A DNA stretch of 64,000 nt. It comes from Candidatus Aenigmatarchaeota archaeon (GTDB lineage: Archaea; Aenigmatarchaeota; Aenigmatarchaeia; QMZS01). The notes below the pieces were generated by a model. That model did not search any database and was not told where the DNA came from. It worked only from the letters and a program-made list of their open reading frames with translations. Positions 14,494-39,154 of this stretch are shown here, one piece after another. The stretch lies in the NCBI GenBank assembly GCA_016932615.1, contig JAFGCN010000007.1, positions 99,325 to 163,324 of the forward strand, in the 5' to 3' direction. The first letter of the stretch is position 1, and each line of letters begins with the position of its first letter. Position numbers and translations under genes: made by a program.

Positions 14494-14607
14494 AACTTAA
14501 AAACCAAATATATATACCACACACAACCAATTAAAACAGCTAAAAAGATTATTTTCCAATCTACTTATGGGCTCGTAGTCCAGCTCGGTTAAGACGTCTC
14601 CTTGACA

Positions 14608-14695
14608 TGAAGCTTTTCTTTTCAAAGAAAAGCCCCAGGCGCAAAAGAAACCGAATTCCTGCTTCGCAGGGATAATTTCCGCGCATGGCTCAAAA
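14608..14695 (+). other. tRNA-Val intron 1 (anticodon loop 37/38), family intron
   Basis: 88 bases. It starts with the hairpin GAAGCTTTTC...GAAAAGCCCC, then CAAAAGAAA, then a hairpin TTCCTGCTTCGCAGG with a CTTCG loop. The end point is ambiguous by one base (T on both sides). Confidence 0.85.
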
Positions 14696-14718
14696 TGGAG
14701 AAGATCCCCAGTTCAAAT

Positions 14719-14794
14719 GAAGCTTTTTCTTGCAAGAAAAAGCTCCATGACCAAAAAGAAGCAGATTCGTGCTTCACACAATAAAAATGAAAAT
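14719..14794 (+). other. tRNA-Val intron 2 (T-loop near 59/60), family intron
   Basis: 76 bases. It begins GAAGCTTTTTCTTG with its complement CAAGAAAAAGCTCC, then CAAAAAGAAGCAG and a GTGCTTCACAC hairpin. The ends are ambiguous by several bases because AAAT is repeated at both junctions. Confidence 0.8.
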
Positions 14795-14894
14795 CTGGGC
14801 GGGCCCATATATTCAAAATATTTTGGAACTGTTTTCTTGAGGGGGCCTGACGGCGGCCCATTTTTCTTAAATTTTTGATAAATTCAACTGAGTT

Positions 14895-15536
14895 ATGGAC
14901 CAAAAAGAGCTTGACAAAAAAATCTCACAAATTGCCGAAGAATCGGAAAAGATTATGGTTTCCTGCCCGAGAGCGGCCCACCATTTCGAGCACATAAAAC
15001 GGGTGCTGAAGCTTGGCCTGGAGATTGGAAAAGAGGAAGGCGCAGACATGGCAATACTCAAGCCGGCGATATTGATGCATGACCTTGGCAGAACATGCGA
15101 AGACGGAAAGACCCACCACTCAAAATTCTCAGTAGACGTCGCAAAAAAAGTACTTGAAAAGGTGGACTACCCCAAAGAATACTGGGGGCCAATACTGTAC
15201 GCAATCGAAAACCATTCCTGGAGAAGCACTGCCGAGAGAAAGGAGGCGCAAATACTGCAGGACGCTGACAAGCTGGATGCAATCGGAGCGATTGGCCTGG
15301 CACGCGGCTTTGCCTTCGGCGGCTCGAACAACTGGCCTGAGTATAACCCAGAGGACCCATTTCTCAAACAGGACCGGCCGATGGAAAACTATACGGTAGA
15401 CCATATATACTGGAAGATACTGAGGCTGAAGCGAAAAATGCACACCAAAAAAGGAAAGGAACTCGCAGAAGAAAGGGAAAAATTCGTCAGGGAATTTCTC
15501 GACAGGATGGAAAAAGAACTCAATGGAGAACTATAA
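14895..15536 (+). CDS. HD-superfamily metal-dependent phosphohydrolase
   Basis: 213 residues. The HD metal ligands are visible in order: H in AAHHFEHIKRVL, the HD pair in ILMHDLGR, the ENHSW histidine, and D in QDADKLDAIGAIG. This is the YfbR/uncharacterised HD hydrolase layout, probably acting on a nucleotide or other small phosphate ester. The substrate is unknown. It lies 87 bases after tRNA-Val and has its own AT-rich upstream region. Confidence 0.85.
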   Translation: MDQKELDKKISQIAEESEKIMVSCPRAAHHFEHIKRVLKLGLEIGKEEGADMAILKPAILMHDLGRTCEDGKTHHSKFSVDVAKKVLEKVDYPKEYWGPILYAIENHSWRSTAERKEAQILQDADKLDAIGAIGLARGFAFGGSNNWPEYNPEDPFLKQDRPMENYTVDHIYWKILRLKRKMHTKKGKELAEEREKFVREFLDRMEKELNGEL

Positions 15537-15562
15537 AACCCACCAAAATGCTTGCCGGAGAC

Positions 15563-15808
15563 CTAAATCTGCTTCAAAAGCTTGTCACAGTCCTTTATTA
15601 TCGAGTCGCAGGCATCCTCTATCGCCTTTTTATTGTTTTTGCCTTCAACCAACATCTCCGCTTTTCCCAAAAAAGGGTGCTTTGTGCCGTAAGCGGCCCT
15701 TTCTACGCCTTTCTGCTCCCAAATCCTCTCGACGAGAAGGTTCAGAATGGTTGCAGATTCGTCGGTCTCGAGGACTACCTTTCCCTCCTTACTCTCAACA
15801 ATTCTCAT
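15563..15808 (-). CDS. rpoL: RNA polymerase subunit L (Rpb11-like)
   Basis: 81 residues starting MRIVESKEGKVVLETDESATI; LNLLVERIW and GTKHPFLGKAEMLVEG match the Rpb11/RpoL core, where DETHTLGNLL is replaced by DESATILNLL. It pairs with RpoD (not in the window) to start polymerase assembly. The start is placed at ATG 15808, where homology begins. It converges with the HD gene and is divergent from the L11-like gene across 29 bases. Confidence 0.85.
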   Translation of the reverse strand: MRIVESKEGKVVLETDESATILNLLVERIWEQKGVERAAYGTKHPFLGKAEMLVEGKNNKKAIEDACDSIIKDCDKLLKQI

Positions 15809-15837
15809 AAAGTATTTTAAAAAATTAAAGCTATATA

Positions 15838-16086
15838 ATGGCAACGGTTTCAGAATTGGTGAAAAAGGAAGCAAAGCTTCAAAAACTTGCAAGTAAAGAG
15901 ACTCCACAGAACATAATGGGAAATATCCCTTTCGAGAAGATAAAGGAGATTGCAAAGAACAGGGAAATGCCAGGAAATACGCTTGAAGCCAAAATCCGGC
16001 AGATTGTCGGAACGTGCATGTCTTACAGGATAACCATCGACGGAAAAGACCCGAGGGAATTCAAGCATTACGGGCTTAAGGAGTAA
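15838..16086 (+). CDS. Stand-alone C-terminal domain of ribosomal protein L11
   Basis: 82 residues. From ELVKKEAKLQK through IPFEKIKEIAKNRE to KIRQIVGTCMSYRITIDGKD it reads as the rRNA-binding C-terminal domain of archaeal L11, ending with the IDGKDPREF signature. The N-terminal domain (about 70 residues, the factor-contacting half) is absent, and the sequence upstream is rpoL on the other strand. Either this genome has only the RNA-binding half, or a full rpl11 exists elsewhere and this is a paralogue. A start at ATG 15838 is supported by a short AT-rich upstream region. Confidence 0.7.
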   Translation: MATVSELVKKEAKLQKLASKETPQNIMGNIPFEKIKEIAKNREMPGNTLEAKIRQIVGTCMSYRITIDGKDPREFKHYGLKE

Positions 16087-16189
16087 TTTTAAGGTTTTGG
16101 CAGGTTTAAAGCGCCAGGGGTTGCCCTAGGGCTCTTAGAGGATCAGCCAAATACAGAAAAAAAGATATAGGATTCTTACAAGTAACATA

Positions 16190-17341
16190 ATGCGCACTTC
16201 AGCAATAAGCGGATTCAGCCGGATGCCGCTTGAGGAAAAGATAAGGGTAGTTGAGAAGTTTTCGGGGCTTGACAGCGAAGACCTCAAAATCCTGGAAACT
16301 TACAGAAAGCTCCCCGACTACTCGGAGCTTGAAAACAATATCGGGCCATTCAAGATTGCGACAAACTTCCTTGTAAACGGAAGGGACATTCTTGTCCCCA
16401 TGGAAACTGAAGAGCCCTCAGTTGTCGCTGCTGCTTCGAGAGGGGCAAAGCTTGCGCGGCAGGGGGGCGGGTTTACCGGCGGCTACCTGGAATCAAAAAC
16501 CGTCGGTATTGTGCAGCTGATTGATATCCCGGAGCTGGAAGAAGCAATAAGGAACATTTCCCGGAAAAAGCAGGAAATCCTGAGAGATGCTAACCGGACA
16601 AATGCTTTCATTTTTGAAAGGGGCGGAGGGGCAAAAGACCTGGAGGTAAAAACAGTTGAGACCGAAAAAGGAAAGCACCTTGTTGCATACCTAACCGTCG
16701 ACACGCTTGACGCGATGGGGGCAAACATCATAAACACTATGCTTGAGGAAATCGCGCCTTATCTGTCGGAGCTTTCGGGAGGAAGGCCCAACCTGAAAAT
16801 TGTGTCAAACTTTGCGCCAAGGCGCGTTGTGAAAATGTGCTGCAAAATCCCAATCGAAAAGCTCGCAATAGAGGATTTTCCGGGCGAAGAGGTTGCAAAA
16901 AGAATTGTCCAGGCAACGGCCCTTGCAAAGGTGGACGTTTACCGGGGCTCAACACATAACAAGGGGGCAATGAATGGAATAGATGCCGTAGTTCTTGCAA
17001 CCGGAAATGACTTTAGGGCCGTTGAGGCGGGAGTTCATAGCTACGCCGCAAGAAACGGAAAATATACCGCCATAACCGACTGGTGGCTTGACGGAAATTA
17101 CATTAACGGAAAAATAGAAGTGCCCCTTGTCATTGGAACCGTGGGCGGCGCGACAGGGACAAAGAAGGGGCGGCTTGCTCTAAAGATACTTGGAATTAAA
17201 AAGGCAGAAGAGCTTGGCGCAATATGCGCGTCAGTCGGCCTTTCCAATAACTTTGCGGCAACTTCCGCCATAGTTTCTGTTGGAATACAGAAGGGGCACA
17301 TGAAGATTCACCGTAAGTTTCTTGAAGGGAAGCCAAAATAA
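16190..17341 (+). CDS. mvaA: Hydroxymethylglutaryl-CoA reductase, class II type
   Basis: 383 residues. The start region SGFSRMPLEEKIRVV, ENNIGPFKIATNFLVNG, the catalytic ETEEPSVVAAASRGAKLA, the NADGIDAV-equivalent NGIDAVVLATGNDFRAVEAG and GTVGGATGTKKGRLALKILG all match HMG-CoA reductase, closest to the class II layout with a compact C-terminus. It makes mevalonate from HMG-CoA, the committed step to isoprenoid lipids. The stop codon overlaps the ATG of the next gene (TAATG). Confidence 0.93.
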   Translation: MRTSAISGFSRMPLEEKIRVVEKFSGLDSEDLKILETYRKLPDYSELENNIGPFKIATNFLVNGRDILVPMETEEPSVVAAASRGAKLARQGGGFTGGYLESKTVGIVQLIDIPELEEAIRNISRKKQEILRDANRTNAFIFERGGGAKDLEVKTVETEKGKHLVAYLTVDTLDAMGANIINTMLEEIAPYLSELSGGRPNLKIVSNFAPRRVVKMCCKIPIEKLAIEDFPGEEVAKRIVQATALAKVDVYRGSTHNKGAMNGIDAVVLATGNDFRAVEAGVHSYAARNGKYTAITDWWLDGNYINGKIEVPLVIGTVGGATGTKKGRLALKILGIKKAEELGAICASVGLSNNFAATSAIVSVGIQKGHMKIHRKFLEGKPK

Positions 17342-17883
17342 TGACTGAACTGACCTTCTTTGCCCACGGAACAACAACCGACAATGAAGCGGGGCTTGCT
17401 ACGGGCTGGAACGGTGGGGAATTGTCTGAACTCGGCAAAAGGCAGTCCGAAGACCTGGAAAAAGCAATAGCTGAAAAGTTTGATTTAGTTTTCTGCTCGG
17501 ACCTCAAAAGGGCCATTGATTCTGCCGAAATTGCTTTTGGAAAAAAATACCAAGTAATCCCTGACAGGCGGCTGAGAGAGGTTAATTATGGCAATCTTAC
17601 CGGAACAGAGTTTTCTGCTTTCAGCGAAAAGCTTGCTGACTTTATAGATGCCAAATTTCCCGGGGGTGAAAGCTACAAGGACGTTGAAAAAAGGGTTTCA
17701 GAGTTTTTGGGAGTTCTGAAAACAAATTATCCTGGAAAGAAAATCGCGATTGTTTCCCACCAGGGGCCGCAGCTTGCCCTTGAAGTCCTGATAAACAAAA
17801 AGAGCTGGAAAGAGGCACTCAGTGAAGATTGGAGAAGGAAAAAAGACTGGAAGCCCGGATGGAAATATGTCCTTTCAGACTGA
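17341..17883 (+). CDS. Histidine-phosphatase-family protein with AHG instead of RHG
   Basis: 180 residues of the phosphoglycerate mutase-like fold. The N-terminal catalytic motif, normally RHG, reads FFAHGTTTDNEAG (A8-H9-G10), so the phosphate-binding arginine is lost while the nucleophilic histidine is kept. The second arginine/glutamate region is FCSDLKRAIDSAE, and the second histidine is in IVSHQGPQL. The same HGTTTDNE form recurs in a sub-family, so this is not simple decay. Substrate unknown. It is translationally coupled to mvaA by a one-base overlap. Confidence 0.8.
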   Translation: MTELTFFAHGTTTDNEAGLATGWNGGELSELGKRQSEDLEKAIAEKFDLVFCSDLKRAIDSAEIAFGKKYQVIPDRRLREVNYGNLTGTEFSAFSEKLADFIDAKFPGGESYKDVEKRVSEFLGVLKTNYPGKKIAIVSHQGPQLALEVLINKKSWKEALSEDWRRKKDWKPGWKYVLSD

Positions 17884-17897
17884 TTAAAGCAAAACGG

Positions 17898-18287
17898 TCA
17901 TTTAAACCTTTTGACAATGTTTACATGCCCGTCCTCATCCCAGGAGCCAAGGCCAACAGTATTCAGTGCGGGGATAATCTTTATATCAGGATATAGTTTC
18001 CTAAGCGCATGAATGCTTGCGTCGCAGCCAAGAACAACCGCGACATCTCCGCCAAGCATCACTTCTCCAAGGTGCTTTATTCCACAGGGCATTCCTACGA
18101 GCGCCTGGCATACAATATTGTAGCCCTCCTGCTGAAGCTTGAAGGAAATTGCTTCCATCCCTTCTTTTCCCCCAGTTTCGCATTTTCTGGCGCATGTGTT
18201 GCAGGACACCACACAAATCCTATCATCTTTTCCAAGCTCATCTGTGATTGTGTCAAAGGGTTTTAATTCTGTAACAATCATAAACAT
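17898..18287 (-). CDS. MTHFR C-terminal-like cysteine protein (MetV-type)
   Basis: 129 residues. The cysteines in VVSCNTCARKCETGGKEG, plus VCQALVGMPCG and GCDASIHAL, match the small domain known as the methylenetetrahydrofolate reductase C-terminal family, MetV in acetogens. There it binds Zn or Fe-S and partners a MetF-type reductase. No metF is visible nearby, so its partner here is unknown. The start could be MFMIV or the internal MIV two residues later. Confidence 0.7.
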   Translation of the reverse strand: MFMIVTELKPFDTITDELGKDDRICVVSCNTCARKCETGGKEGMEAISFKLQQEGYNIVCQALVGMPCGIKHLGEVMLGGDVAVVLGCDASIHALRKLYPDIKIIPALNTVGLGSWDEDGHVNIVKRFK

Positions 18288-18371
18288 TAACGATTTATAT
18301 TAGCTTTAAGTACTCTGCTATAAGTCAATTGTCTAAGTCTGCCAAAATAGGTTATTTTGTTCTCTAAACTT

Positions 18372-19091
18372 ATGCTGATAAGAAAGGAAGAGTCAGTTCC
18401 AAAAAAGGCCGGAGAAAGACATACTGTGTGGGAATATGAATTTCCGTATAAAGACCTGGGATTCGCAACCGCCTATATGGACGGCAGGTACCCCGAGCAG
18501 AATCAAATAGTAAATTCTAAGTGCGACGAAGTCTATTTTGTGTTGGATGGAAATGCCCATGTAAGTTATGGGGGTAAAGAATCCGGATTAGAGCAGGGAG
18601 ACTTGTTTTTCTTTGAAAAAGGCAACCCCTGCTCAGTGGATGCCCGAAACATGACGCTGATACTGGTCACTGCCCCCGCATGGTTTCCTGAGCAGTCTAA
18701 GTTGGAATCCTCACCAGGAAACTTCCTGCCTGGAAAATCCCAAAATCTGGTCAAAAAATCCAACGCAGTTGAAATAAAAAATGGGCCAAACTGCACAGTC
18801 CATGAGCACTACTTTCCATCAAAAGACCTGGGATTTGCAACTGCCGATATGGAGGGAAGGTACCCCGACAAGGGCTTCGCTACAAACACCGCCTGCAGCC
18901 AGATTTATTACGTGCTTGAAGGGCAGGCAAAAGTTCACTACGAAGGAAAGGAATACCCGATGAAAGCAGGTGACGCATTCTTCTTTGAAAAAGGAAAGCC
19001 CTACTCCCTAGAATGCAGGGGTCTAAAAGTCGCAGTTGCAAATGCGCCTGCCTGGTACGCAGACCAATACAAAATTGTGCCTGAAGAGTAA
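18372..19091 (+). CDS. Two-domain cupin protein
   Basis: 239 residues from ATG 18372; an in-frame TTG at 18357 is possible but less likely. It is a tandem duplication: DLGFATAYMDGRYPEQNQIV...DEVYFVLDGNAHVSYGGKES and DLGFATADMEGRYPDKGFAT...SQIYYVLEGQAKVHYEGKEY are clear repeats, each ending with FFFEKG and an APAW(Y/F) motif. Each half is one cupin barrel. The usual HxH(x)E metal ligands are not obvious in either copy, so a binding rather than catalytic role is possible. No specific function is recognised. Confidence 0.75.
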   Translation: MLIRKEESVPKKAGERHTVWEYEFPYKDLGFATAYMDGRYPEQNQIVNSKCDEVYFVLDGNAHVSYGGKESGLEQGDLFFFEKGNPCSVDARNMTLILVTAPAWFPEQSKLESSPGNFLPGKSQNLVKKSNAVEIKNGPNCTVHEHYFPSKDLGFATADMEGRYPDKGFATNTACSQIYYVLEGQAKVHYEGKEYPMKAGDAFFFEKGKPYSLECRGLKVAVANAPAWYADQYKIVPEE

Positions 19092-19111
19092 ACGGCACTA
19101 CAGTTATGCCG

Positions 19112-19741
19112 CTAGTCAAACATGCTAGCTGAAAACATAGGCATGCCTCGCCTTGGCGGGCCGTGCCCTGGAAGCAATGCATCCACATCAAGCTGCGCAA
19201 GCTTTTTCAGGGATGCCTTAAGCTCGTCTATGTTTCCGCTTGGAAGGTCTGTTCTTCCAAATCCGTCAGAAAAAAGCGTGTCTCCGGAAATTAAAATTCT
19301 CTTGTTTTTTTCGTAAAGGCAGATGCTCCCTCTTGTGTGGCCTGGAGTATGCAAAACCCTAAACCGGTAGGAAGGAGTTTTTATCTCTATTCCTTCTTCC
19401 AGCAGCATGTCCGGCTCTAGCTTTATGGGGGGGCTTCCAAATAAATCTGCGCATGAGCCGATTCCAGACTTTAGCTTCTCTGCATCAAACTCATGGACAC
19501 ATATTAGGGCCTTTGTGTTTTGGCTGAACCATTCAGTTCCTCCAATGTGGTCAAAGTGGCCGTGAGTGCAGACAACTCGCTTCACCTTGCCAGGGCTTAT
19601 TCCCTGCATTTTCATCTGCTCGAGTATTGCCGGAAAGTCGCTTTTAGTTCCGGTATCCACCAAAAGCTCTCCCTCAATCAAGTAGACATTGCTTGAAGAG
19701 CCAAATCCCCCAAACTGGAATATGCCACCCGGAATGTTCAT
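19112..19741 (-). CDS. Metallo-beta-lactamase-fold hydrolase (glyoxalase II-like)
   Basis: 209 residues. The metal motif CTHGHFDHIGG (about residues 58-68) follows the family HxHxDH pattern. Later ligands are HTPGHTRGSICLY, then SGDTLFSDGFGRTDL, and a C-terminal LLPGHGPPR. The GRTDLPSGN stretch is typical of the hydroxyacylglutathione hydrolase-like group; true glutathione chemistry is unlikely in an archaeon. It converges with the cupin gene. Confidence 0.88.
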   Translation of the reverse strand: MNIPGGIFQFGGFGSSSNVYLIEGELLVDTGTKSDFPAILEQMKMQGISPGKVKRVVCTHGHFDHIGGTEWFSQNTKALICVHEFDAEKLKSGIGSCADLFGSPPIKLEPDMLLEEGIEIKTPSYRFRVLHTPGHTRGSICLYEKNKRILISGDTLFSDGFGRTDLPSGNIDELKASLKKLAQLDVDALLPGHGPPRRGMPMFSASMFD

Positions 19742-19775
19742 TAAATTACTTGCCTAAAATCTAGGTAAGTTTATC

Positions 19776-20357
19776 ATGGAAAACAGGAAATACATCCCCC
19801 TTATCCAAAAGCCGGACTGCTGCTCTGCTGCATGCCTTCAGATGATTCTTTTCAAAAGAGGATTCACTCGATTCACTCAGGAGAAAATTGCTAAAGAGCT
19901 GGGGCTGTATATAGGCCCTAAAAACAAAGATGCTTTTTCTGAAAAGCTGAAAGTCCGGTCAAAGAAGTCAGACATAAACGAGACCGTCAAAAGCGCCAGG
20001 AAGATAAATGAATTCTTCAGGAAGAATAGAATTCCACTTTCTGCCAGGGGATTCAAAATATCGCAGATTGAAAACCCTGAAGAGTTCATAAGGCAAGCCC
20101 TCGACAAAGATTATGACTTGTGGGCAGAGTTTTCAAATATGCCTATTTACGGAACTAGTGGAGGGCATGACTGCCTTATATCCGGGCTGAAAAAGAAAGG
20201 GCGCCAATGCTTTGCTGAATTGGTTGACCCATATTGGGGGCATAAGCAGGTATACCTTGTGCCGCTTGACAGATTAATCAAAGCGATGCAAAAAGAAAAC
20301 TCTCCGCCTCCTGCCAGGGAAAGAGGCATAGTAGTTATCACAGGAAGGCCGTCCTAA
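19776..20357 (+). CDS. C39-like papain-fold cysteine peptidase
   Basis: 193 residues. The N-terminal IQKPDCCSAACLQMIL matches the catalytic Cys helix of peptidase family C39 (consensus DCGxACLxM). TSGGHDCLISG supplies the histidine and LVDPYWGHKQVY the aspartate. No signal peptide or ABC transporter is attached, so it is not a bacteriocin exporter; processing of a small peptide in the cytoplasm is one possibility. It is convergent with the MFS gene, overlapping by 4 bases. Confidence 0.7.
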   Translation: MENRKYIPLIQKPDCCSAACLQMILFKRGFTRFTQEKIAKELGLYIGPKNKDAFSEKLKVRSKKSDINETVKSARKINEFFRKNRIPLSARGFKISQIENPEEFIRQALDKDYDLWAEFSNMPIYGTSGGHDCLISGLKKKGRQCFAELVDPYWGHKQVYLVPLDRLIKAMQKENSPPPARERGIVVITGRPS

Positions 20358-21523
20358 GCAGACTTTTGAAACTTCCTGGCAAAGCATATCATCAGGAGGG
20401 CGCATATGATAAACAGCACCACCCTGACAGCAAATATCCAGGAAAATCCCAGATGCTCCATGATAAGCCCTCCTGAAAACGAGCCTATTACACTGGCGAT
20501 AAATGCATTATTGGTGACGAAGGCAATGTCACGGCCATTATTCTTTCCAGCAGAATCGAAAATCATCTTCGTGACGGCAGTGGAGCCAAGCCCAAATGCT
20601 GCTGCCTGAAGAAAGAGAACACCTGCCGCAGCGAATGGGCTTTGATTAAATACCAAAAATACATTGACCGGAATTATCAAAGCAAACGTGGAAGCGTATA
20701 AAAGCCCGGGGTGGAATCGGTCAGCAAATTTTCCAAAAAAGAGCTGGGATAGGTAATAGCCGCACCACATAAAGCCAATCAAAAATCCGATAAGCCCTGC
20801 ATCAGCTCCAAGATGCTTGAAATAAAGCGGAAAGCCAAAAGCAGTAATGGTCTGCCCTGCAATGTTCGAGATAAGAAGCACCAGGAAGAGGAACTTTATT
20901 TTCCAGGGAATACTTCCAAAGTCAAAGGCCTTCGAGATGCCTGAAGGCCTGCCACCGGATTTCGGTTTGGGCTTCTTAACCGTTTCCCTAAAGCCCATCG
21001 CCAAGAGAACAGAAAACATGCCAAAAAGGGCGCAGACAAGAAAAAGGTTTCGGTAGCCAAGCCATAGCAGAAGAACACCCCCCAAAGCCATAGCAGCGAC
21101 TACGGCCATGCCAGCAATCCCATTGTAACGGCCAGCAAGCTGCCCACGCTTGTTTTTCGGCATGATGTCCGACAGGTATGCCCCAGAAGACGCACTTGAT
21201 ATCGCAAGGTATGACGACCAGAGGAGAGACGCAATTGTAAACTCCCAGGATTTAGTGAAAAAGGCAATTGCAATAAAATATGCCGAAAAGAGCACCGAGG
21301 AAAGTACGAGGTACGCCTTCCGCCCAACCGCATCCGAATGGGTGCCCACAAAATAATTGAGAACAAGCCCCAGAACCGGACCGATTGCAAAGATGGCGCC
21401 AATCTCCGCGTAGCTTATCCCAAGCCCCTGAAGATAAAGCGGAAAAGTTACCGAAGCGATTCCCGCTGGAATAGAAAGCACAATCCCCCAGACAAGAAAC
21501 TTTTGGAAATCGCCATTTGCCAT
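20354..21523 (-). CDS. MFS transporter (paralogue 1)
   Basis: 389 residues with 11-12 membrane helices and a central charged loop (RETVKKPKPKSGGR). The MFS loop signatures GTHSDAVGRKAYLVLSS (helix 2-3) and GKFADRFHPGLLY (helix 8-9) are present. The substrate cannot be told. It is a tandem duplicate of the next MFS gene, 23 bases away on the same strand; both share the N-terminal pattern GDFxKxLxW and SIPAGxxSV. Confidence 0.88.
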   Translation of the reverse strand: MANGDFQKFLVWGIVLSIPAGIASVTFPLYLQGLGISYAEIGAIFAIGPVLGLVLNYFVGTHSDAVGRKAYLVLSSVLFSAYFIAIAFFTKSWEFTIASLLWSSYLAISSASSGAYLSDIMPKNKRGQLAGRYNGIAGMAVVAAMALGGVLLLWLGYRNLFLVCALFGMFSVLLAMGFRETVKKPKPKSGGRPSGISKAFDFGSIPWKIKFLFLVLLISNIAGQTITAFGFPLYFKHLGADAGLIGFLIGFMWCGYYLSQLFFGKFADRFHPGLLYASTFALIIPVNVFLVFNQSPFAAAGVLFLQAAAFGLGSTAVTKMIFDSAGKNNGRDIAFVTNNAFIASVIGSFSGGLIMEHLGFSWIFAVRVVLFIICALLMICFARKFQKSA

Positions 21524-21546
21524 AATATGCCAATCAAGAAAAGAAA

Positions 21547-22688: not shown

Positions 22689-22764
22689 AAATTACCTGCG
22701 AGAAAAAATGCCTGGCCAAAAGCCCATTAGAGAACCAAAAAGCCAAAAAAAGCATTCAAAGAAT

Positions 22765-22911
22765 CTATCTGGGCACGTATGTGGGATATCTTGCCCCTGC
22801 CATTCCAACATTCTGGCACCTAAGCACCAGATTGCATCCAGAATCATATACTGGCCCGGTTTCTATGGCAGCGGAAAGCCCAAAAGAGCCCTGTGTTAAG
22901 TCCCTTCTCAT
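22765..22911 (-). CDS. Possible small protein, unknown
   Basis: 48 codons in the 303-base stretch between the MFS and rpoB1 genes. It runs MRRDLTQGSFGLSAAIETGP to a C-terminus ending ARYPTYVPR. A TATA-like AGATTTATTT abuts the ATG, closer than usual. Nothing else recognisable lies in this interval. The call rests on composition only and could be chance. Confidence 0.2.
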   Translation of the reverse strand: MRRDLTQGSFGLSAAIETGPVYDSGCNLVLRCQNVGMAGARYPTYVPR

Positions 22912-28360: not shown

Positions 28361-28558
28361 CGCCGGGGGTGAGACTCGAACTCACGACCCTCACGGGACT
28401 GGTTTACTCATTTAATAATCGACTTCCCAAAAGGAAGGTAGAAAGCGTCAATAATATTTCGCGAAGCGCGAAACTGCTTTCTTTTGCTCCTGAAGCTTTT
28501 CTTTTGCAAAGAAAAGCTTCATTCGAGACCAGCGCATTAACCGCTCTGCCACCCCGGC
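28361..28558 (-). tRNA. tRNA-Ser(CGA) with one intron
   Basis: The acceptor GCCGGGG (28558-28552) pairs with CCCCGGC (28368-28362), and G73 is at 28361. The anticodon stem is CTGGT with ACCAG (28403-28399), and the loop reads CTCGAA+A, giving anticodon CGA. A long variable arm CCCGTGAGGG marks it as class II, and the T-arm is GTGAG-TTCGAGT-CTCAC. A 117-base intron follows A37. The mature tRNA is 81 nt. Confidence 0.93.
28405..28521 (-). other. tRNA-Ser(CGA) intron (37/38), family intron
   Basis: 117 bases. It opens TGAAGCTTTTCTTT with complement AAAGAAAAGCTTCA, then GCAAAAGAAAGC, then the hairpin TTTCGCGCTTCGCGAAA. A further 50 bases have no counterpart in the shorter family members. Confidence 0.85.
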
Positions 28559-29687: not shown

Positions 29688-29693
29688 AAAAAA

Positions 29694-31657: not shown

Positions 31658-31723
31658 ACTGTCTAGAGATAACCAGAAAAATAACTTGAAACAAATGTAA
31701 AAAAATCAAAGGTGTGTTCTAAA

Positions 31724-32766: not shown

Positions 32767-32782
32767 AAATATACCTTTCCTG

Positions 32783-32794
32783 ATATATATATAG
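32783..32794 (-). promoter_or_regulatory. TATA box for the 32107-32766 gene
   Basis: Alternating A/T run CTATATATATAT on the minus strand, ending 17 bases before the ATG at 32766. A clean example of the leaderless spacing used across this window. Confidence 0.5.
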
Positions 32795-32861
32795 CGTCCT
32801 TTCGAAATCGGAAAAATCATACTTCAAAACTTTCAGAATCCAAAAATAAAATCCCTTACAG

Positions 32862-33224
32862 CTATTTCTTGGCTTTCTTTTTGGCGCCTTTCTTAGCAAT
32901 CTCCTTTTTAAGCTCCTTTGATTTCAGTGTAAAAAGCTTGACCTGGCTTTCTATGTAGGCATTTGCAACTGCAACGCCCGCCTTATCGCCTTTTGAGTTT
33001 TTCTCGACCAAGGTCCTGAGCGCCTTAAAATAATCCACCCAGGTATCGGATATTTCCTTGGCGATTTTCAAATTTTCAACGCCGCCTTCCCTTTCAACCT
33101 TGTCTATTGCCTCTATGCTCGCGGAGTAGCTGCTCGAAAAAACGCTATTGCTTGTGGATGCCGGAGGTACACTTACAGAAGGCTTGGGCGCTTTAGCAAC
33201 CTTTGATACTTTTGGCTTTGCCAT
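32862..33224 (-). CDS. Small helical protein, paralogue of the 31.7 kb gene
   Basis: 120 residues from ATG 33224. It has a basic, proline-rich start (MAKPKVSKVAKAPKPSVSVP), a serine-rich linker, two or three helices, and a lysine-rich end (KKEIAKKGAKKKAKK). The helical body is related to that of the 31724-32110 protein. The charged ends could bind nucleic acid or acidic protein. It is divergent from the two-helix membrane protein at 33251 with 26 bases between starts. Confidence 0.6.
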   Translation of the reverse strand: MAKPKVSKVAKAPKPSVSVPPASTSNSVFSSSYSASIEAIDKVEREGGVENLKIAKEISDTWVDYFKALRTLVEKNSKGDKAGVAVANAYIESQVKLFTLKSKELKKEIAKKGAKKKAKK

Positions 33225-33250
33225 AATTATAACAAATACAATCCTAATAT

Positions 33251-33907
33251 ATGGACAAAAAGCCACTCTATTCTAACAGCACAATTGTCCAGAATGCTTA
33301 CGAATCGTCTGGAAAGAGTAGCGCAAAAGAAAGTTCTTCGTATTCAAGCGGCATGTACTCAAAGCTTTCCCCAAAAAAATCCGGAAGCAAAAAATGGGTT
33401 CTTCCTCTTGCAGTCGGGGCTGCCGGCATTGCTTACTCGATAAGCCAGATCCAGGGAATGGACGAAACAATGATTGAAACGCTTAAGCACACCGGAGGGA
33501 TTGACCGTGTGACCTCTGCAGAATACCGGCAGATAATGGAAGCGGCCTCCGACAATATGCAAACAGACGGATCTGACCCCGGGCTTTTGGATAAAGTCCA
33601 GAATGAGCTTGCGGGCACAAAAGTGTCTGTTGCCGAAAAATCTGTCCTTGCCAAGGTAGGAGAAGCCGCAAGCATCATGAATTCCGACCCCGAGGAAGCG
33701 CACAGGATTATTGAAGCGGAAAGGCAGGCGCATCCATACATCTTCCAGGCCAACCCGGAATATAATCTGGTTGACCCAATTTTTACCCAGGAAATGGTTG
33801 AAAAGGTAAGGGCCGCAGGTGCAGGCGGGCTGGTAGGCCTTGCCGGAGCAAGCGCAGCGGCAGGCGCCTATGCTGAATCAAGAACCAAACACAAAAACCC
33901 CCTATAA
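33251..33907 (+). CDS. Two-helix membrane protein with Ser-rich tail, unknown
   Basis: 218 residues. A Ser/Lys-rich N-terminal tail of about 50 residues leads into a first membrane helix (WVLPLAVGAAGIAYSISQI), a soluble domain of about 115 residues, and a second glycine/alanine-rich helix (AGAGGLVGLAGASAAAGAYA), with a short basic C-terminus. Both tails should be cytoplasmic and the middle outside. The same layout recurs in the neighbour at 33952-34560. No family recognised. Confidence 0.6.
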   Translation: MDKKPLYSNSTIVQNAYESSGKSSAKESSSYSSGMYSKLSPKKSGSKKWVLPLAVGAAGIAYSISQIQGMDETMIETLKHTGGIDRVTSAEYRQIMEAASDNMQTDGSDPGLLDKVQNELAGTKVSVAEKSVLAKVGEAASIMNSDPEEAHRIIEAERQAHPYIFQANPEYNLVDPIFTQEMVEKVRAAGAGGLVGLAGASAAAGAYAESRTKHKNPL

Positions 33908-33951
33908 ACCCACGTCCGGCAAACTACCAAAAATAACACCAATGAAAACAC

Positions 33952-34560
33952 TCAGTAAACTTTTGCCTTTGCCCCTACAGAAAACAGTTTTGCATTACTT
34001 TCAATTTTGGAATTCTGGGAAGCATCCGAACGCTCAAGGCACCTTTTGGCCATGCTTCCTCCATACACCAGCCCCAGAAGAGCTCCAATTTTATCAAGAT
34101 TCCCAGTAATCCTCTGCCGAACTATTTCATCCATACCCATTCCCTGTGTGGTTATCACAGTACTGGTACTAATACCTGTACCTTCTGCAGCCCCCGTTGC
34201 AGTTACTGCCTTCTCAGGATCAATGCCCCCCAGATAAGAAGCCAAAGTATCCTGCAAACCTCCCGACTGGTTAGACTCAACGGAAGTTGCAAATGCCCCA
34301 ATAGGATTAATGTATTGAGTTATCATAACAAGAGCATCGGGTATCGCTGTACTCAAATAAGGCAGATTATCGACTACCTCCCCGCCAGCCGCCCCCAAAA
34401 GAGCGCCGGTTATTGCAAGAGCGGGAAGCGCGGTCTGCTTGACAAGGGTCTTATAACCGCACTTCAGGGCGCTGGATACAGAACCGCTAGGGGGTTTTGA
34501 GCCATAAGCCCCTTCATCCGCTGCAGGGGGAGGAGCATAAGAACTGCCGGAATCAGACAT
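33952..34560 (-). CDS. Two-helix membrane protein with Ser/Pro-rich tail, unknown
   Basis: 202 residues. The N-terminal tail MSDSGSSYAPPPAADEGAYG is low complexity. Helix one is TALPALAITGALLGAAGGEV, then about 100 residues rich in Gly, Thr and Ala, then a second hydrophobic segment (LDKIGALLGLVYGGSM) and a basic end. It converges with the 33251 gene and has the same topology, which suggests they act at the same place. Function unknown. Confidence 0.6.
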   Translation of the reverse strand: MSDSGSSYAPPPAADEGAYGSKPPSGSVSSALKCGYKTLVKQTALPALAITGALLGAAGGEVVDNLPYLSTAIPDALVMITQYINPIGAFATSVESNQSGGLQDTLASYLGGIDPEKAVTATGAAEGTGISTSTVITTQGMGMDEIVRQRITGNLDKIGALLGLVYGGSMAKRCLERSDASQNSKIESNAKLFSVGAKAKVY

Positions 34561-34613
34561 AATATCATATCTTAAGGAAAGTATATAGAAATAGTGCCGG
34601 GGAAGGGATTTGA

Positions 34614-34718
34614 ATTCGAGGAAGCCTTATTCTTACCCAATTTCCCAGTAATATGCCTGCGAAGCAGGAATTACTTTCTTTGGAATTGAACACTTTCTTT
34701 CCCTGAAAGAAAGGGCTC
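34614..34718 (-). other. tRNA-Met intron 2 (T-loop 54/55), family intron
   Basis: 105 bases. It opens GAGCCCTTTCTTTC with complement GGGAAAGAAAG, then CCAAAGAAAG and the hairpin TTCCTGCTTCGCAGG. The boundary is ambiguous by one T, so the site could also be 53/54. Confidence 0.8.
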
Positions 34719-34735
34719 ACCCTCGATCTCTGCGT

Positions 34736-34876
34736 TTCTCAAGACAAGTTTAGCGCGAAACTTTCATCGATTTCTCTCAAAGCTCACTAGCTAGCCAACT
34801 TAACGGTAGAATTACCGCGAAGCGGGAAACCGCTTCTTTTGACGTAAAGGACTTTTCTTCGCAAGAAAAGTCTTTT
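34736..34876 (-). other. tRNA-Met intron 1 (anticodon loop 37/38), family intron
   Basis: 141 bases. It begins AAAAGACTTTTCTTGCG with complement GAAGAAAAGTCC, then ACGTCAAAAGAAGC, then the hairpin CCCGCTTCGCGG. The remaining 75 bases form an extra arm absent from the shorter members. Confidence 0.8.
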
Positions 34877-34935
34877 TATGAGCGCAGCGCCTTAACCGCT
34901 TGGCCACCCCGGCATAATTTGCTATACGAAAAAGA

Positions 34936-35502
34936 TTAACATATATTTGCCTTCTCAAGGTCCCTTATAAACCCGCATTTTGTCTCGTCAAAGCCGCTTC
35001 GAAGCATTGCTATTGTGTCCTCAGAGAACTCCTTATGGTAGAGAGGGTCAAAAAACAGGGACAGGTTCGTAAAAAACGAGTGGTAGACCGAGAAAAGCTG
35101 GTTGAATTGGTAGCCCATGCGCGGGCTTTTGAGGCAGAGGTAAAAGGCAAGATTGTCCCAGATGTAAGCGCAGTCAAAGACAAACCTCTGGCATACTTTT
35201 GAGCTGTCATAGCCGCCATCAGTGTTTGAAAGCTCTGAAAGTATCTTGGACATAACGTCAAAGAGAAGGTAAAACCTATCATAAACCTGGGGGTCTTTTG
35301 CCTTAGGTATCTCGCTTGAAATAGCCCGGGAGATTGAATTGAGATAGTTTACCCTCTGCTCGATATCCCCAAAAGGATATATCCTACAGTGCCACTTGTC
35401 TCCTACCCGCTCACACCTTACGCTTCGGGACATCGAGCTTAACGCCTCGAAATAGTTCTCAAGAAACTCATCGATAAGCCCCAAAGCATCGGTCTTCATC
35501 AT
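34936..35502 (-). CDS. Hypothetical helical protein
   Basis: 188 residues, soluble, mainly helical. It starts MMKTDALGLIDEFLENYFEA and contains a CERVGDKWHCRIYPFGDIEQ segment with two cysteines and FVFDCAYIWDNLAFYLCLKS in the middle. No catalytic motif or known family. It sits directly upstream of tRNA-Met on the same strand and downstream of the tandem HIT gene, 3 bases apart, so it is probably in that operon. Confidence 0.6.
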   Translation of the reverse strand: MMKTDALGLIDEFLENYFEALSSMSRSVRCERVGDKWHCRIYPFGDIEQRVNYLNSISRAISSEIPKAKDPQVYDRFYLLFDVMSKILSELSNTDGGYDSSKVCQRFVFDCAYIWDNLAFYLCLKSPRMGYQFNQLFSVYHSFFTNLSLFFDPLYHKEFSEDTIAMLRSGFDETKCGFIRDLEKANIC

Positions 35503-35505
35503 AAT

Positions 35506-36543
35506 CTACACATTCTTTACTTCGCTTATATTAAAAACGTCATCCTGATGCGCAAGATTAAACTCCTGCCATTCCCTCTCGGGGCTTTTCCGGCTCTTCG
35601 GCTTTGGCGAGGATCTTTCGGGCGGTTTTTCTTCCCCCCGTCCATCCTTTTTCTCCCCACTTCCCTTACCAGAGCCCATCTCGAAACGCACCTTTTCGGC
35701 AATCTTGTCTAGCTCACTAGGGTCTGCAGGGGCAGGGTTCCACATAAAATTGAGTCCATCTCCCTCAACTCTTGGAAAAACGTCAATACAGAAGCTCTTC
35801 TCAGTATTGCCGGCAATTATGTTCGTGCCTTGCGCTTTGAGTGCTTCAAAAGCGGCAGTTGCGGCAAAGCTTGCAACATAAAACAGGTGGACTGCTTCAG
35901 AGTCGGACAGTTCCCCGACTTTGGCAACCTCTCCCTTCGCATAAACTTTCACGTGGCCAAGCGCACCCTTGCACATAATCGCCAAGGCCGCAGTATCGTC
36001 ATAGATAACTTTAGTGTCTGCATACCGCGGTATGGGGTCGCTTTTTGCTTCCAAACCTGGCTTTAGGCCTGGATTTCGCTTGAAGTGGTTCTGGATCATT
36101 ATCGGCAGGTTATGGGAGAATATTTCAAATATTTCCTGAAGCTTTGCCGGGTCCGGAACGATTTCGGGAACTCTAAAGCCGCCTCCCTCCGGGCTTGGAA
36201 TCAGGTGAACCATAAAATGCTGCGACTGCTGGCCCGCCACTGCGCCGTTTGCAATGAAAATATCCAGATTCGGAGCGCCGGTTGCCCTTGCAGAAGCACC
36301 GCCCAGATTTTTTGCTACAGTAAACAGCCGGGCAAATGTTTCGACAGGAACCATTGGCAGAATCGGATAATGCTCCTTTGGCATAAGGAGAGTATGCCCC
36401 GGTGCCTTGGGGTTTATGTCAAGGACACCTACAAAGAGGTCGTCTTCATAAACCTTCCTGGAAGGGATCTCTCCAGACACTATTTTGCAAAAAGGGCAGG
36501 CCCCCCGGGCATCTTCGGCGCTTCTTGGCTGTTCTTCAGGCAT
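35506..36543 (-). CDS. Tandem HIT-domain protein with altered catalytic histidines
   Basis: 345 residues with two HIT-like domains and a charged C-terminal tail. Domain 1 has CPFCKIVSGEIPSRKVYED (zinc-type start), PGHTLLMPKEHY and GQQSQHFMVHLIP: against the family HxHxH, the middle, nucleophilic histidine is Met. Domain 2 (about 175-285) has GALGHVKVYAKG and SFCIDVFPRVEGDGLNFMW, where the triad reads S-C-D. So neither domain keeps the nucleotidyl-histidine residue. A nucleotide-binding, non-hydrolytic role is inferred. The adjacent 36.6 kb gene encodes an intact HIT enzyme. Confidence 0.75.
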   Translation of the reverse strand: MPEEQPRSAEDARGACPFCKIVSGEIPSRKVYEDDLFVGVLDINPKAPGHTLLMPKEHYPILPMVPVETFARLFTVAKNLGGASARATGAPNLDIFIANGAVAGQQSQHFMVHLIPSPEGGGFRVPEIVPDPAKLQEIFEIFSHNLPIMIQNHFKRNPGLKPGLEAKSDPIPRYADTKVIYDDTAALAIMCKGALGHVKVYAKGEVAKVGELSDSEAVHLFYVASFAATAAFEALKAQGTNIIAGNTEKSFCIDVFPRVEGDGLNFMWNPAPADPSELDKIAEKVRFEMGSGKGSGEKKDGRGEEKPPERSSPKPKSRKSPEREWQEFNLAHQDDVFNISEVKNV

Positions 36544-36569
36544 AATTAAAATGGATTAAGAGTAACTAT

Positions 36570-36998
36570 TCAGGGCGGGCTTTTTTGCGAAAATGCGCGG
36601 ATTTTTTCGGCAATTTGGGGCAGGTCTTCCTTACGAAAGGGCATTTTAACGATTGCCTGAACCGACTCTCCGCCATCACCAGCATAACGGGGAATTATAT
36701 GGAAATGGACGTGCTGGACCTCCTGGCCGGCAATCTTTCCAACATTTGCCCCGATATTGCAAGCATCAGTCCCCATAGCAGACATCACCTGGCTTGAAAG
36801 AGAATAGATAAATCCAAAGTATCCTTCCGCTTCGGAAAGGGGCATATCCAGCAGGGAAGCATAATGCTTTTTCGGAATTATCACAGTGTGCCCCCTGGAA
36901 GAAGGGCTGATGTCAAGAAACGCAAGAAACCTCCCATCCTCGGCCACCTTCAGGGCAGGGATTTTTCCCGAAATAATGCTGCAAAACAGGCAGTCCAT
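36570..36998 (-). CDS. HIT-family nucleotide hydrolase
   Basis: 142 residues. It starts MDCLFCSIISGKIPALKVAE (the zinc-binding CxxC and first strand), then GHTVIIPKKHYASLLDMP, and the full active-site motif GQEVQHVHFHIIPRYAGDGG (HxHxHxx). This is the HINT/Fhit-like hydrolase acting on nucleoside phosphoramidates or dinucleoside polyphosphates. Intact, in contrast to its tandem neighbour. Confidence 0.92.
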   Translation of the reverse strand: MDCLFCSIISGKIPALKVAEDGRFLAFLDISPSSRGHTVIIPKKHYASLLDMPLSEAEGYFGFIYSLSSQVMSAMGTDACNIGANVGKIAGQEVQHVHFHIIPRYAGDGGESVQAIVKMPFRKEDLPQIAEKIRAFSQKSPP

Positions 36999-37023
36999 AA
37001 TAAATCACAAGCCAAATAAAACA

Positions 37024-37155
37024 TCACCTTGCTAGAATTGTCTTGGTTTCGCCGATTCGGTCTTTCATTAGTATCCTGAAACCGCAGGTCGGGCAGATTA
37101 CGCTCTCTTCAATTTTTTCTACTTTGCCCTTACATTTTACGCATGTATATCCCAT
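37024..37155 (-). CDS. rpoP: RNA polymerase subunit P (Rpb12-like)
   Basis: 43 residues: MGYTCVKCKGKVEKIEESVI, then CPTCGFRILMKDR and a basic end. The two CxxC pairs form the RpoP zinc ribbon, and (C)PxCGxRIL is the family signature. It binds at the polymerase assembly platform with RpoD and RpoL. Its ATG overlaps the sepF stop (TAATG). Confidence 0.9.
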   Translation of the reverse strand: MGYTCVKCKGKVEKIEESVICPTCGFRILMKDRIGETKTILAR

Positions 37156-37511
37156 TATTCTTTAATCCTTGAAACCATTACGTTGGGAGGACAAACGATG
37201 AGGATTGACTGAGGCCCCATTACTATATCCCCGTTTATCGCCGTAACCGTCTTCTTTATCCTTTCGATTGACCTTTTAAGCTCGCCTACATCCTTGTTTT
37301 TCATTTCGAGTGTCTCCGCCAAAACTATGCTTCCTTCCCGGATGTACTTCAGAATCTTTTCACAATCCCGAAATTCGGTCAATTTTTCTATCCTAATCCG
37401 GATTTTTCCAGACTGCTGCCTTGGCTCCTCGATAATGCTGTCCAAATCAATATATTCATCGCTGTCTGACTCCTGGCGTGATGGCCTACCAAAGATTCGA
37501 TCAAATACCAT
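37155..37511 (-). CDS. sepF: SepF-like cell-division protein
   Basis: 118 residues. An N-terminal MVFDRIFGRPSRQESDSDEY may be the short membrane-targeting helix. The core IRIEKLTEFRDCEKILKYIR, GSIVLAETLEMK, LKRSIERIKKTVTAINGDIV and GPQSILIVCP is the SepF/DUF552 fold. In archaea SepF ties FtsZ to the membrane; ftsZ is at 10 kb. It is coupled to rpoP by one-base overlap. Confidence 0.88.
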   Translation of the reverse strand: MVFDRIFGRPSRQESDSDEYIDLDSIIEEPRQQSGKIRIRIEKLTEFRDCEKILKYIREGSIVLAETLEMKNKDVGELKRSIERIKKTVTAINGDIVMGPQSILIVCPPNVMVSRIKE

Positions 37512-37605
37512 AACTATACTTAAATATATAAATATCCCCTTCTGGTGGGCTTATTCAGAGTGGGCCAGTGGCTTGAAAATATATACTATATTGGCTATAC
37601 TAATT

Positions 37606-38208
37606 ATGGAGATTTTCAGGCGGAGTTGGGGTGTCATCTCAGACCCCAGCCGGTTCTTCAGCAAAATAAAGAAGGAAAAGGGGCTCAAGAAGGCGTTTAC
37701 TTACTTTTTTGTATTGTCCCTGTTTGGAACCGTCATGTCTTTTGCCGCAAATGAAATGCTTCTTGACTATGTTTACGGGCCGCTAATGAATGCTTATGGA
37801 TTCTCAGCCCCCCAGCAGGAAGTTTCACAGCAGATTGTGGGCACCTGGTACGCAATAATGTTTTTCTCAGGCCTGCTCATAAGCTTTCTAATGGCAGGGC
37901 TAATCCACCTCTGGATTATGCTTTTTGGAGGCAAAGAGGAATATGAAAAGACCTATCAGATATATGCTTACTCTAAGACTCCCAGCTTTCTTTTCGGCTG
38001 GATTCCATTTTTTTCAGTACTTGCTGAGGCGTACCACGTCGTTCTTTTAATTGCCGGGACGCATAAAATTCAAGGAATCGAAAGGAACCGGGCAATCTGG
38101 ATGTTTGCTGTGCCTTACCTCATATACATTGCAGTTTCGATAATCTTTCTCATGCAGTTCATGAACTCTGACGCTATGAGCGTATTTTTGACCAATTCGA
38201 CAATTTAA
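37606..38208 (+). CDS. Yip1-family membrane protein
   Basis: 200 residues from ATG 37606, which follows a TATA-like AATATATACTATATT. The N-terminal DPSRFFSKIKKEKGLKKAFT is the typical cytoplasmic start of Yip1-domain proteins, followed by five membrane helices. EKTYQIYAYSKTPSFLFGWI and AIWMFAVPYLIYIAV match conserved Yip1 positions. Function in archaea is not established. Confidence 0.8.
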   Translation: MEIFRRSWGVISDPSRFFSKIKKEKGLKKAFTYFFVLSLFGTVMSFAANEMLLDYVYGPLMNAYGFSAPQQEVSQQIVGTWYAIMFFSGLLISFLMAGLIHLWIMLFGGKEEYEKTYQIYAYSKTPSFLFGWIPFFSVLAEAYHVVLLIAGTHKIQGIERNRAIWMFAVPYLIYIAVSIIFLMQFMNSDAMSVFLTNSTI

Positions 38209-38808
38209 CTAAATGTTCTCTCCCTCCAGCAACTCACGCCTTAAATAGGCCTCTAGGGTACGATAAAGCACATCTGCAGAAGCTCCCATCCCATGAAAAT
38301 GACACCTTCTTTGGCTTCCATTTGCCTCAACTGAAGCGATGGCCTCCCCTCTAAAATTTCCGCCATCGTGGTAATTGCCTAGCCAAATGAGACCCCTGGA
38401 AATAAAACTATCCCCCTCAGGCATGAGAAATGGCCTGCCCGAATAAATGAAAGAATAAACGCCTGGATCAGAGAAGCCCTGATTTCCAAGTTGGATTGAT
38501 GACTCCGAACTCTTCTCTCCAGGAAAAATATGGAGACCCTCTACAGGAAATATCCCCAGATATAAGCTTCCCATTACAACAGGTTTAATCCTGTCTGAAT
38601 TGTAATAAACTCCAAAGTTTGATTCATGTCTTTTGCCATCAGCCAGAAGCGGCACAGCTATTTGCTCAAAAAAATTTTGGGTGGAAAAATCTACATAATC
38701 TCCATTTCTTATCCTTACCCAAGAACCGCTATAACTTGCGCCATAGTCCATCAGATCCAATAGACTTTGGAGCAAATCCTTTGGTCTGATTACTTTTTCA
38801 AATGCCAT
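38209..38808 (-). CDS. Hypothetical protein
   Basis: 199 residues, soluble and beta-rich (for example VYYNSDRIKPVVMGSLYLGI and GVYSFIYSGRPFLMPEGDSF). No recognised domain, signal peptide or membrane helix. Its stop codon directly abuts that of the convergent Yip1 gene. Codon use is more AT-rich than the housekeeping neighbours, like other orphan genes of the window. Confidence 0.6.
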   Translation of the reverse strand: MAFEKVIRPKDLLQSLLDLMDYGASYSGSWVRIRNGDYVDFSTQNFFEQIAVPLLADGKRHESNFGVYYNSDRIKPVVMGSLYLGIFPVEGLHIFPGEKSSESSIQLGNQGFSDPGVYSFIYSGRPFLMPEGDSFISRGLIWLGNYHDGGNFRGEAIASVEANGSQRRCHFHGMGASADVLYRTLEAYLRRELLEGENI

Positions 38809-38866
38809 AAGAATACCCCAAAATATACGTTTAGGTAGTTATTTCCTAATGCCCAAATTTTTAATA

Positions 38867-38886
38867 CGCTGGGGCCGGGATTCGAT
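38867..38886 (-). pseudogene. Duplicated 3' end of tRNA-Ser(GCT)
   Basis: ATCGAATCCCGGCCCCAGCG on the minus strand is identical to the last 19 bases of the tRNA-Ser(GCT) gene plus one intron base. The identity spans 22 bases (38865-38886 against 38976-38997), starting right at the T-loop intron junction. It could be an attachment-site scar or a decayed second copy of the tRNA. Confidence 0.65.
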
Positions 38887-38977
38887 GAAACCCTTTAAGG
38901 GCTAATTTGGTCAAAAGGTCTTCACCCCAAAGCAGGCAAAACATAAGCTTTCCGCAAAAATAACCCTTTTTGAGCTA

Positions 38978-39154
38978 CGCTGGGGCCGGGATTCGATACC
39001 GGAAATTACAGCCAAATTGCAGACCATTTCGCGAAGCGGAATAGTTTTTCTTTTGACGTTAAGGACTTTTCTTTCATAAAGAAAGGTCTTTACCCGGGCT
39101 CCCAAAGGGAACATGCTTAGCAGGCATGCGCCTTAACCGCTCGGCCACCCCAGC
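38978..39154 (-). tRNA. tRNA-Ser(GCT) with a T-loop intron
   Basis: The acceptor GCTGGGG (39154-39148) pairs with CCCCAGC (38985-38979), and G73 is at 38978. The D-arm is GCC/GGC. The anticodon arm CATGC-CTGCTAA-GCATG is uninterrupted, with anticodon GCT. The class II variable arm is TCCCTTTGGGA. The T-stem CCGGG (39097-39093) pairs with CCCGG, and a 95-base intron splits the T-loop after T54. The mature length is 82 nt. Confidence 0.92.
38997..39091 (-). other. tRNA-Ser(GCT) intron (T-loop 54/55), family intron
   Basis: 95 bases. It begins AAAGACCTTTCTTTATG with complement GAAAGAAAAGTCC, then AACGTCAAAAGAAA, then a TTCCGCTTCGCGAA hairpin. It is closest to tRNA-Met intron 1, sharing ACGTCAAAAGAA. 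Confidence 0.85.

Follow-up and report, generated by a model that had tools for sequence, protein, structure and literature searches.

Six structured introns in four tRNA genes

The window analysed here, a 64,000-nucleotide stretch of DNA from a Candidatus Aenigmatarchaeota archaeon (contig JAFGCN010000007.1 of assembly GCA_016932615.1; C7:99325-163324), contains four tRNA genes interrupted by six related introns. The source genome (G000; 1.26 Mb, 29 contigs, 97% complete) encodes an RNA polymerase subunit B' whose best matches are in Candidatus Aenigmatarchaeota metagenome-assembled genomes (74% to CSMAG_2865). In the raw window, neither ARAGORN nor Rfam at its gathering score reported any tRNA, the top sub-threshold Rfam tRNA match being tRNA-Ser(GCT) at 28.6 bits. 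Introns were then removed under a strict bulge-helix-bulge (BHB) rule, by which one 4-nt strand of the helix and then two bulge bases end the 5' exon, and the complementary strand with its own two bulge bases ends the intron. This yielded complete cloverleaves by ARAGORN for Val(GAC), Ser(CGA), Met(CAT) and Ser(GCT), and an intron-tolerant scan of both strands revealed no further tRNA genes in the window. The six introns measure 76–141 nt and lie at positions 37/38 (three), 53–55 (two) and 59/60 (one). At the exon-intron junctions of all six, a central 4-bp helix is flanked by two 3-nt bulges, as in Val 37/38, where the helix is TTGA/TCAA and the bulges are CA|T and AA|T. A first-pass annotation of this DNA had described six introns with a common order of parts in four tRNA genes, inserted at three different positions, all of which proved to be real; it had also spoken of nine tRNA introns, where we count six, all of them in the family.

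A covariance model, R1, was built from a seed of eight copies found with a simple pattern, among which only the tRNA-Met 37/38 intron came from the window. R1 recovered the five held-out window introns, with the E values given below for each. The tRNA-Val(GAC) gene (14569–14806, plus strand), called as tRNA-Val(gac) by ARAGORN after removal of both introns and supported by the intron-tolerant scan, carries two members of the family. Its 37/38 intron (88 nt, 14608–14695; helix TTGA/TCAA; R1 match at 14607–14650, E = 2e-4) consists of the module TGAAGCTTTTCTTTTCAAAGAAAAGCCCCAGGCGCAAAAGAAA and a CTTCG hairpin, and is followed by a 59/60 intron (76 nt, 14718–14793; helix TTCA/TGAA; R1 14717–14760, E = 3.5e-6). 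The other three genes lie on the minus strand and were likewise identified by BHB splicing with ARAGORN and by the intron-tolerant scan. tRNA-Ser(CGA) (28362–28558) has a 37/38 intron of 117 nt (28405–28521; helix CTCG/TGAG; R1 28478–28522, E = 6.9e-7), and tRNA-Ser(GCT) (38979–39154) has a 54/55 intron of 95 nt (38997–39091; helix CCGG/CCGG; R1 39047–39093, E = 1.3e-9). The elongator-type tRNA-Met(CAT) gene (34596–34913) again has two family introns. The 37/38 intron (141 nt, 34736–34876, identified by BHB splicing; R1 34833–34877, E = 2.4e-12 as a seed copy) has the family module at its 5' end and a conserved GAGCTTTGAGAGAAATCGATGA block at its 3' end, while the second intron (105 nt, 34615–34719; helix CGAG/CTCG; R1 34675–34720, E = 1.1e-5) is placed at 53/54, a junction at 54/55 yielding the identical spliced product. 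No group I or group II intron match was found in the window by Rfam up to E = 5, and that identity was dismissed for the six introns. Elsewhere in the window, Rfam gave two weak matches, both below threshold, to the C/D-box RNA sR2 on the minus strand, at 61800–61863 (E = 0.046) and 62016–62061 (E = 3.9).

A structured repeat dispersed over unrelated tRNA genes

Genome-wide, R1 found about 48 copies in G000 at E<0.02, nearly all of which lie within tRNA genes when their flanks are read directly. BHB splicing combined with ARAGORN placed family introns in about two dozen G000 tRNA genes, with up to three per gene, and restored cloverleaves for some 20 tRNA genes beyond the four in the window. 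The sites used are the D loop, 37/38, the variable arm (hand-read), 53–55 and 59/60. One copy (C11:42448) lies outside tRNA genes, immediately 5' of a start codon; in the window, setting aside a module 3' of tRNA-Ser(GCT), the next full-length non-tRNA match reached only E = 0.07.

The module begins with a palindromic hairpin of 8–11 bp (CCTTTTCTT..AAGAAAAGG), which is followed by the linker CCCCAAAAGAAA and then by a GC-rich hairpin with a TTCG-type loop. An outer closing stem of about 5 bp, often beyond a 2x2 mismatch (commonest TC/TC), varies in sequence between copies; at least four of its five pairs are Watson-Crick in 34 of 88 distinct copies, versus 3.4 when the 3' sides were re-dealt (maximum 11 in 3000). 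Within the intron the module follows closely on the 5' splice site, and the BHB is formed by the 5' exon together with the final six bases of the intron. Long introns have an extra, inverted module copy near the 3' end that is able to pair with the linker. In the long 54/55 introns, sequence reading and opposite-strand matches identify this copy as CTTTTGGGGTGAAGACCTTTT..AAAAGGG, whose first part is able to base-pair with the 5' module's linker.

The hairpin covaries. Among 112 aligned matches, both-side changes occur at six of nine hairpin pairs, none of them via G-U, and 94.9% of hairpin cells are paired, compared with 87.1% in shuffles. Across 977 cells there is not a single G-U pair. Some G-U pairs would be expected in a hairpin maintained only as RNA, and their absence suggests constraint or copying at the DNA level. 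The simple composition of the hairpin arms, with their T/C and A/G runs, might favour chance similarity of AT-rich hairpins as an explanation, but this is refuted by the recovery of held-out introns with R1, by the covariation and by the BHB-restored tRNAs, and we give it practically no credence.

Similarity among the copies does not track tRNA identity. The mean nearest-neighbour identity of the 46-nt cores genome-wide, before duplicate removal, was 0.89 versus 0.65 for shuffled sequences (maximum 0.72), so that the family stands against this control. Automatic tRNA assembly was unreliable for some genes with three or more introns, and these were omitted from the core set or added to it by hand, and duplicates removed, before isotype and site were compared. 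The nearest neighbour then belonged to the same isotype for 4 of 43 cores (2.6 expected, p 0.29) and to the same site for 16 of 43 (10.9 expected, p 0.09). The isotype result led us to dismiss an intron phylogeny that simply tracks each tRNA, one of two outcomes that the first-pass annotation had named as fatal to its proposal. The proposal itself, that the introns form a family with a common structure which has been copied from one tRNA gene or position to another, is upheld by the further members recovered, the covariation, the differing site occupancy among relatives described below and this lack of agreement with tRNA identity. Individual pairs illustrate the pattern: the cores of Ala(CGC) and Ser(TGA), both at 54/55, are 100% identical, and identities of 98% link Val(TAC) 59/60 with Gly(TCC) 37/38, and Ser(CGA) 37/38 with Arg(CCT) 37/38.

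Identical cores at the same site, as in Ala(CGC) and Ser(TGA), are what would be expected if gene conversion or homologous recombination among tRNA loci moved intron halves between genes without any mobile element. Displaced 3' exons, which look like recombination scars, also speak for such a process. In the window, an inverted module (TTTGGGGTGAAGACCTTTT..AAAGGGTTTC; 38887–38932, minus strand; R1 opposite-strand match at 38885–38935, E = 0.028, and sequence reading) lies 3' of tRNA-Ser(GCT) and resembles the 3' part of long 54/55 introns elsewhere in G000. Directly 3' of it is an exact, displaced duplicate of the tRNA-Ser(GCT) 3' exon (ATCGAATCCCGGCCCCAGCG; 38867–38886, minus strand; 14/14 in the downstream-duplicate test), the intact gene being upstream. 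No BHB partner was found for this duplicate, which is therefore probably not spliced. Duplicates of a tRNA gene's own 3' end were also observed about 80–110 nt downstream of other tRNA genes (L089, L011 and G011 C3:94664, L100), and an inverted module stands immediately 5' of the duplicate after Ser-GCT, Gln-TTG and others. Downstream duplicates of at least 12/14 identity occur for 3 of 23 tRNAs versus 2 of 458 controls, and look like a scar of insertion or recombination. Against conversion as the general explanation, the exons beside near-identical introns have not been homogenised, the sites differ, and copies exist outside tRNA genes; we consider it very unlikely.

Copies at gene boundaries and differences in occupancy between relatives

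The first-pass annotation had suggested a covariance-model search of this genome and its relatives, and the search produced more members in both. A search of 95 genomes from the class (G000 included) gave module matches at E<=0.01 in 48, with a patchy distribution of 0 to 44 copies. Among 20 named genomes searched, the five from Aenigmatarchaeota or unclassified archaea had 1–19 matches each, and most Diapherotrites, together with the Micrarchaeota, Sigynarchaeota and Thermoplasmata records, had none. In one unclassified archaeon (L113), a tRNA with three introns has two that match the model and a third that is alike by eye.

Two relatives, G061 and G011, carry the module in both orientations: it abuts stop codons and the 3' ends of tRNAs, and its inverted form abuts start codons. 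A stop or start codon is no more than 8 nt away from 32 of the 71 copies tested in relatives, versus 8.5% of random intergenic positions, and most of the other copies in relatives lie within or just 3' of tRNAs, as judged from their flanks. In gene-boundary copies the module tip always points to the coding segment. These copies were left out of BHB scoring, since free offsets make chance 4-bp helices expected. One case is the gap between the uS8 and uL6 genes, which in G061 is spanned exactly, from stop codon to start codon, by a pair of modules; in eight relatives, including the congeners G081 and G030, the gap is 10–45 nt and module-free. Two repeats, both about 83 nt long, make up the G061 composite, and each also occurs alone elsewhere in the genome, the trailer type 3' of genes and the leader type 5' of genes. 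The left and right modules are inverted relatives that are only moderately alike, and no consistent target-site duplication was seen. Trailer-leader pairs run from stop to start in G061 at C1:61245-61411, 282647-282829 and 284297-284469, splitting ribosomal-protein and other operons, and the leader repeat holds AATAATATT, perhaps a TATA box.

A pair of facing modules in G011 (L105, 9085–10676) was considered as a possible autonomous element and dismissed, the interior frame being methyltransferase-like by eye and not a transposase. The same locus was dismissed as a filled and empty pair between G011 and G089, as the module is present in both; their length difference of about 160 nt is mostly due to a different, four-hairpin repeat. 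A high-copy, multi-hairpin repeat of about 110 nt (TCTTGGGAGAAGCGAAGCTTCTCCGAGATC...), distinct from the module, lies at L105:9198-9312 in G011, inside that length difference, and at some 40 places in G089, mostly with 85–97% identity.

The precision of these positions raises the question of whether the module is a fixed cis-acting RNA or DNA boundary element, under selection as a processing, termination or translation signal at exons, stop and start codons and tRNA 3' ends, with mobility a minor matter. Besides the extreme precision and the constant direction of the tip, strong covariation, the separate leader and trailer repeats of G061, and the resemblance of the T-rich strands to archaeal terminators all fit this view. 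Occupancy, however, is patchy and lineage-specific, with eight relatives lacking the module at uS8-uL6 and about half of the genomes having no match, and tRNA introns at several sites contain the module too, although a terminator there would do harm. We regard a fixed boundary element as unlikely but not negligible.

Sites in tRNA genes also differ in occupancy between relatives, in line with the site variation that the first-pass annotation had anticipated. The tRNA-Cys gene carries a family intron in G000; in G008, a member of the same family of organisms, it has no intron and a module stands right after its 3' end. A second, initiator-like CAT tRNA has a family intron in G000 and is uninterrupted in G005, again of the same family. 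The tRNA-Met 37/38 intron, including a conserved 3' block, is common to G000, G001, G002, G003 and G008. Its 5' end holds the family module in G000 and a related module in G002, and is free of any module in G001 and G008. Because relatives have this intron without the module, comparison of the sequences indicates that the module can enter a pre-existing intron and need not always create one. As a separate observation, the GAGCTTTGAGAGAAATCGATGA block of this intron (34736–34760 and upstream to about 34790, minus strand) is largely conserved in four same-family relatives, and may represent an intron-borne small RNA.

These observations bear on the route by which the introns moved, for which the first-pass annotation had put forward reverse splicing. 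Under such RNA-level transposition, excised introns would reverse-splice into other pre-tRNAs at BHB-like sites, and reverse transcription with recombination would fix them. The introns do occur only at BHB-compatible sites, some of which share a TCGAA/TTCAA exon context (37/38, 59/60), near-identical introns are found at different sites, and this is also one reading of the Thermoproteales case discussed below. Yet the module is found outside tRNAs, beside start and stop codons, and also in antisense orientation to the message; reverse splicing is disfavoured as the main route because these non-tRNA and antisense copies lie where no spliced RNA is expected. Moreover, the conserved part of the introns is the interior 5' module, whereas the splice-proximal 3' end is locus-specific, the hairpin is free of G-U pairs, and a module lies within the pre-existing Met intron. 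An RNA route is, in our judgement, distinctly unlikely.

A repeat proposed to spread as DNA, and its relation to known systems

The family membership, structure and BHB geometry of the introns, their dispersal over unrelated tRNAs and sites, the gene-boundary copies and the lineage-specific occupancy are established. The introns give the appearance of having been copied from a DNA element that spreads, and not of being private features of each tRNA, because nearly every disrupted tRNA gene in G000 carries the repeat and relatives have it at the edges of protein genes. We favour, with a probability of roughly 0.57, the reading that the six window introns are copies of one dispersed, palindromic and non-autonomous Aenigmatarchaeota repeat, which propagates as DNA and which tRNA genes tolerate by virtue of splicing. 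Spread would occur either because the repeat is mobile but non-autonomous or through recombination between copies. Within tRNA genes, the EndA endonuclease and a ligase could remove the module, the BHB being completed by the last six intron bases and the 5' exon, and many copies might persist there since splicing would render them harmless. A single EndA gene (PF01974) was detected in G000, with one N-terminal and one C-terminal domain. The strict BHB of the family introns fits this enzyme because relaxed motifs have been tied to the two-subunit type (PMC4090602, PMC4033280). The G000 enzyme (L264:940-1797, C18) also has a long lysine/glutamate-rich N-terminal extension that is absent from that of G011.

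Several points weigh against spread as DNA. The comparisons of filled and empty sites are nearly all between genera, uS8-uL6 being the sole case within a genus. The Y1 transposase (PF01797) had no match in G000, the genome with the most copies, no transposase or integrase tied to the repeat was found, and target-site duplications were not demonstrated. In addition, the module hugs coding segments (0–2 nt 5' of start codons, with the stop codon often within the closing stem) more tightly than random insertion into short gaps would, and such abutment could reflect a function at RNA ends.

Related behaviour is known elsewhere. The first-pass annotation held that archaeal tRNA introns are normally unrelated between genes, a generalisation with a published exception in the Thermoproteales, where, as the reviews PMC4090602 and PMC4033280 summarise Fujishima 2010 (doi 10.1093/molbev/msq111), the occurrence of similar introns in diverse tRNAs was interpreted as transposition, the mechanism being unknown but supposedly acting at the DNA level. 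As far as those summaries extend, the likeness lies in similar intron sequences across different tRNA genes and positions; the differences are the lineage, Aenigmatarchaeota here, a long structured core compared with short introns there, the presence of the module outside tRNA genes, and the single EndA with one domain of each kind compared with the two-subunit crenarchaeal enzyme. tRNA-intron transposition is thus already known, and what look new are the lineage, the structured core and the non-tRNA copies. Our search of the open-access literature on Aenigmarchaeota/Aenigmatarchaeota tRNA introns found no paper on such introns, subscription literature being outside its scope.

In Caldiarchaeum, DNA elements have been proposed as the cause of tRNA gene disruption (PMC3293823), and that model shares with ours the gain of tRNA introns and displaced tRNA fragments through DNA elements at tRNA genes. 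It differs in that a recombinase-coding element at one tRNA is involved there, and a non-coding repeat in tens of copies here. Repetitive extragenic palindromes and bacterial interspersed mosaic elements (REP/BIME), and repeats derived from the insertion sequences IS200/IS605, are similarly short, palindromic, non-coding, dispersed and extragenic, often in inverted pairs. Here, by contrast, the copies are tRNA introns and the genome with most of them lacks the Y1 transposase, on which ground mobilisation in cis of the IS200/IS605 or REP kind was dismissed. The filled and empty orthologous sites at uS8-uL6, tRNA-Cys and the initiator-like CAT tRNA recall miniature (MITE-like) transposable elements. 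In the split tRNAs of Nanoarchaeum and Caldivirga, complementary extensions after the 5' half and before the 3' half could pair in the same manner as the two modules of a long intron, but here both halves stand in order in one gene, and the displaced Ser-GCT 3' exon has no BHB partner.

To our knowledge, the gain of archaeal tRNA introns is an open question, and the burst in Thermoproteales has no established mechanism. The Aenigmatarchaeota family represents a second such burst, in a lineage far removed from the first. Its structured core can be recognised, its sites are filled in some genomes and empty in others, and the repeat has relatives beyond tRNA genes; these features suggest a DNA route and lend themselves to testing with population data. 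The module also explains why ARAGORN and Rfam detect few or no tRNAs in such genomes. More tentatively, and as a possibility we would not yet favour, the repeat may be a mobile DNA element of DPANN archaea, palindromic and non-autonomous, whose insertions fall precisely at the edges of segments coding for mature RNA, giving BHB introns in tRNA genes and leader and trailer cassettes around protein genes. If so, one repeat family would both make tRNA introns and remodel transcript boundaries.

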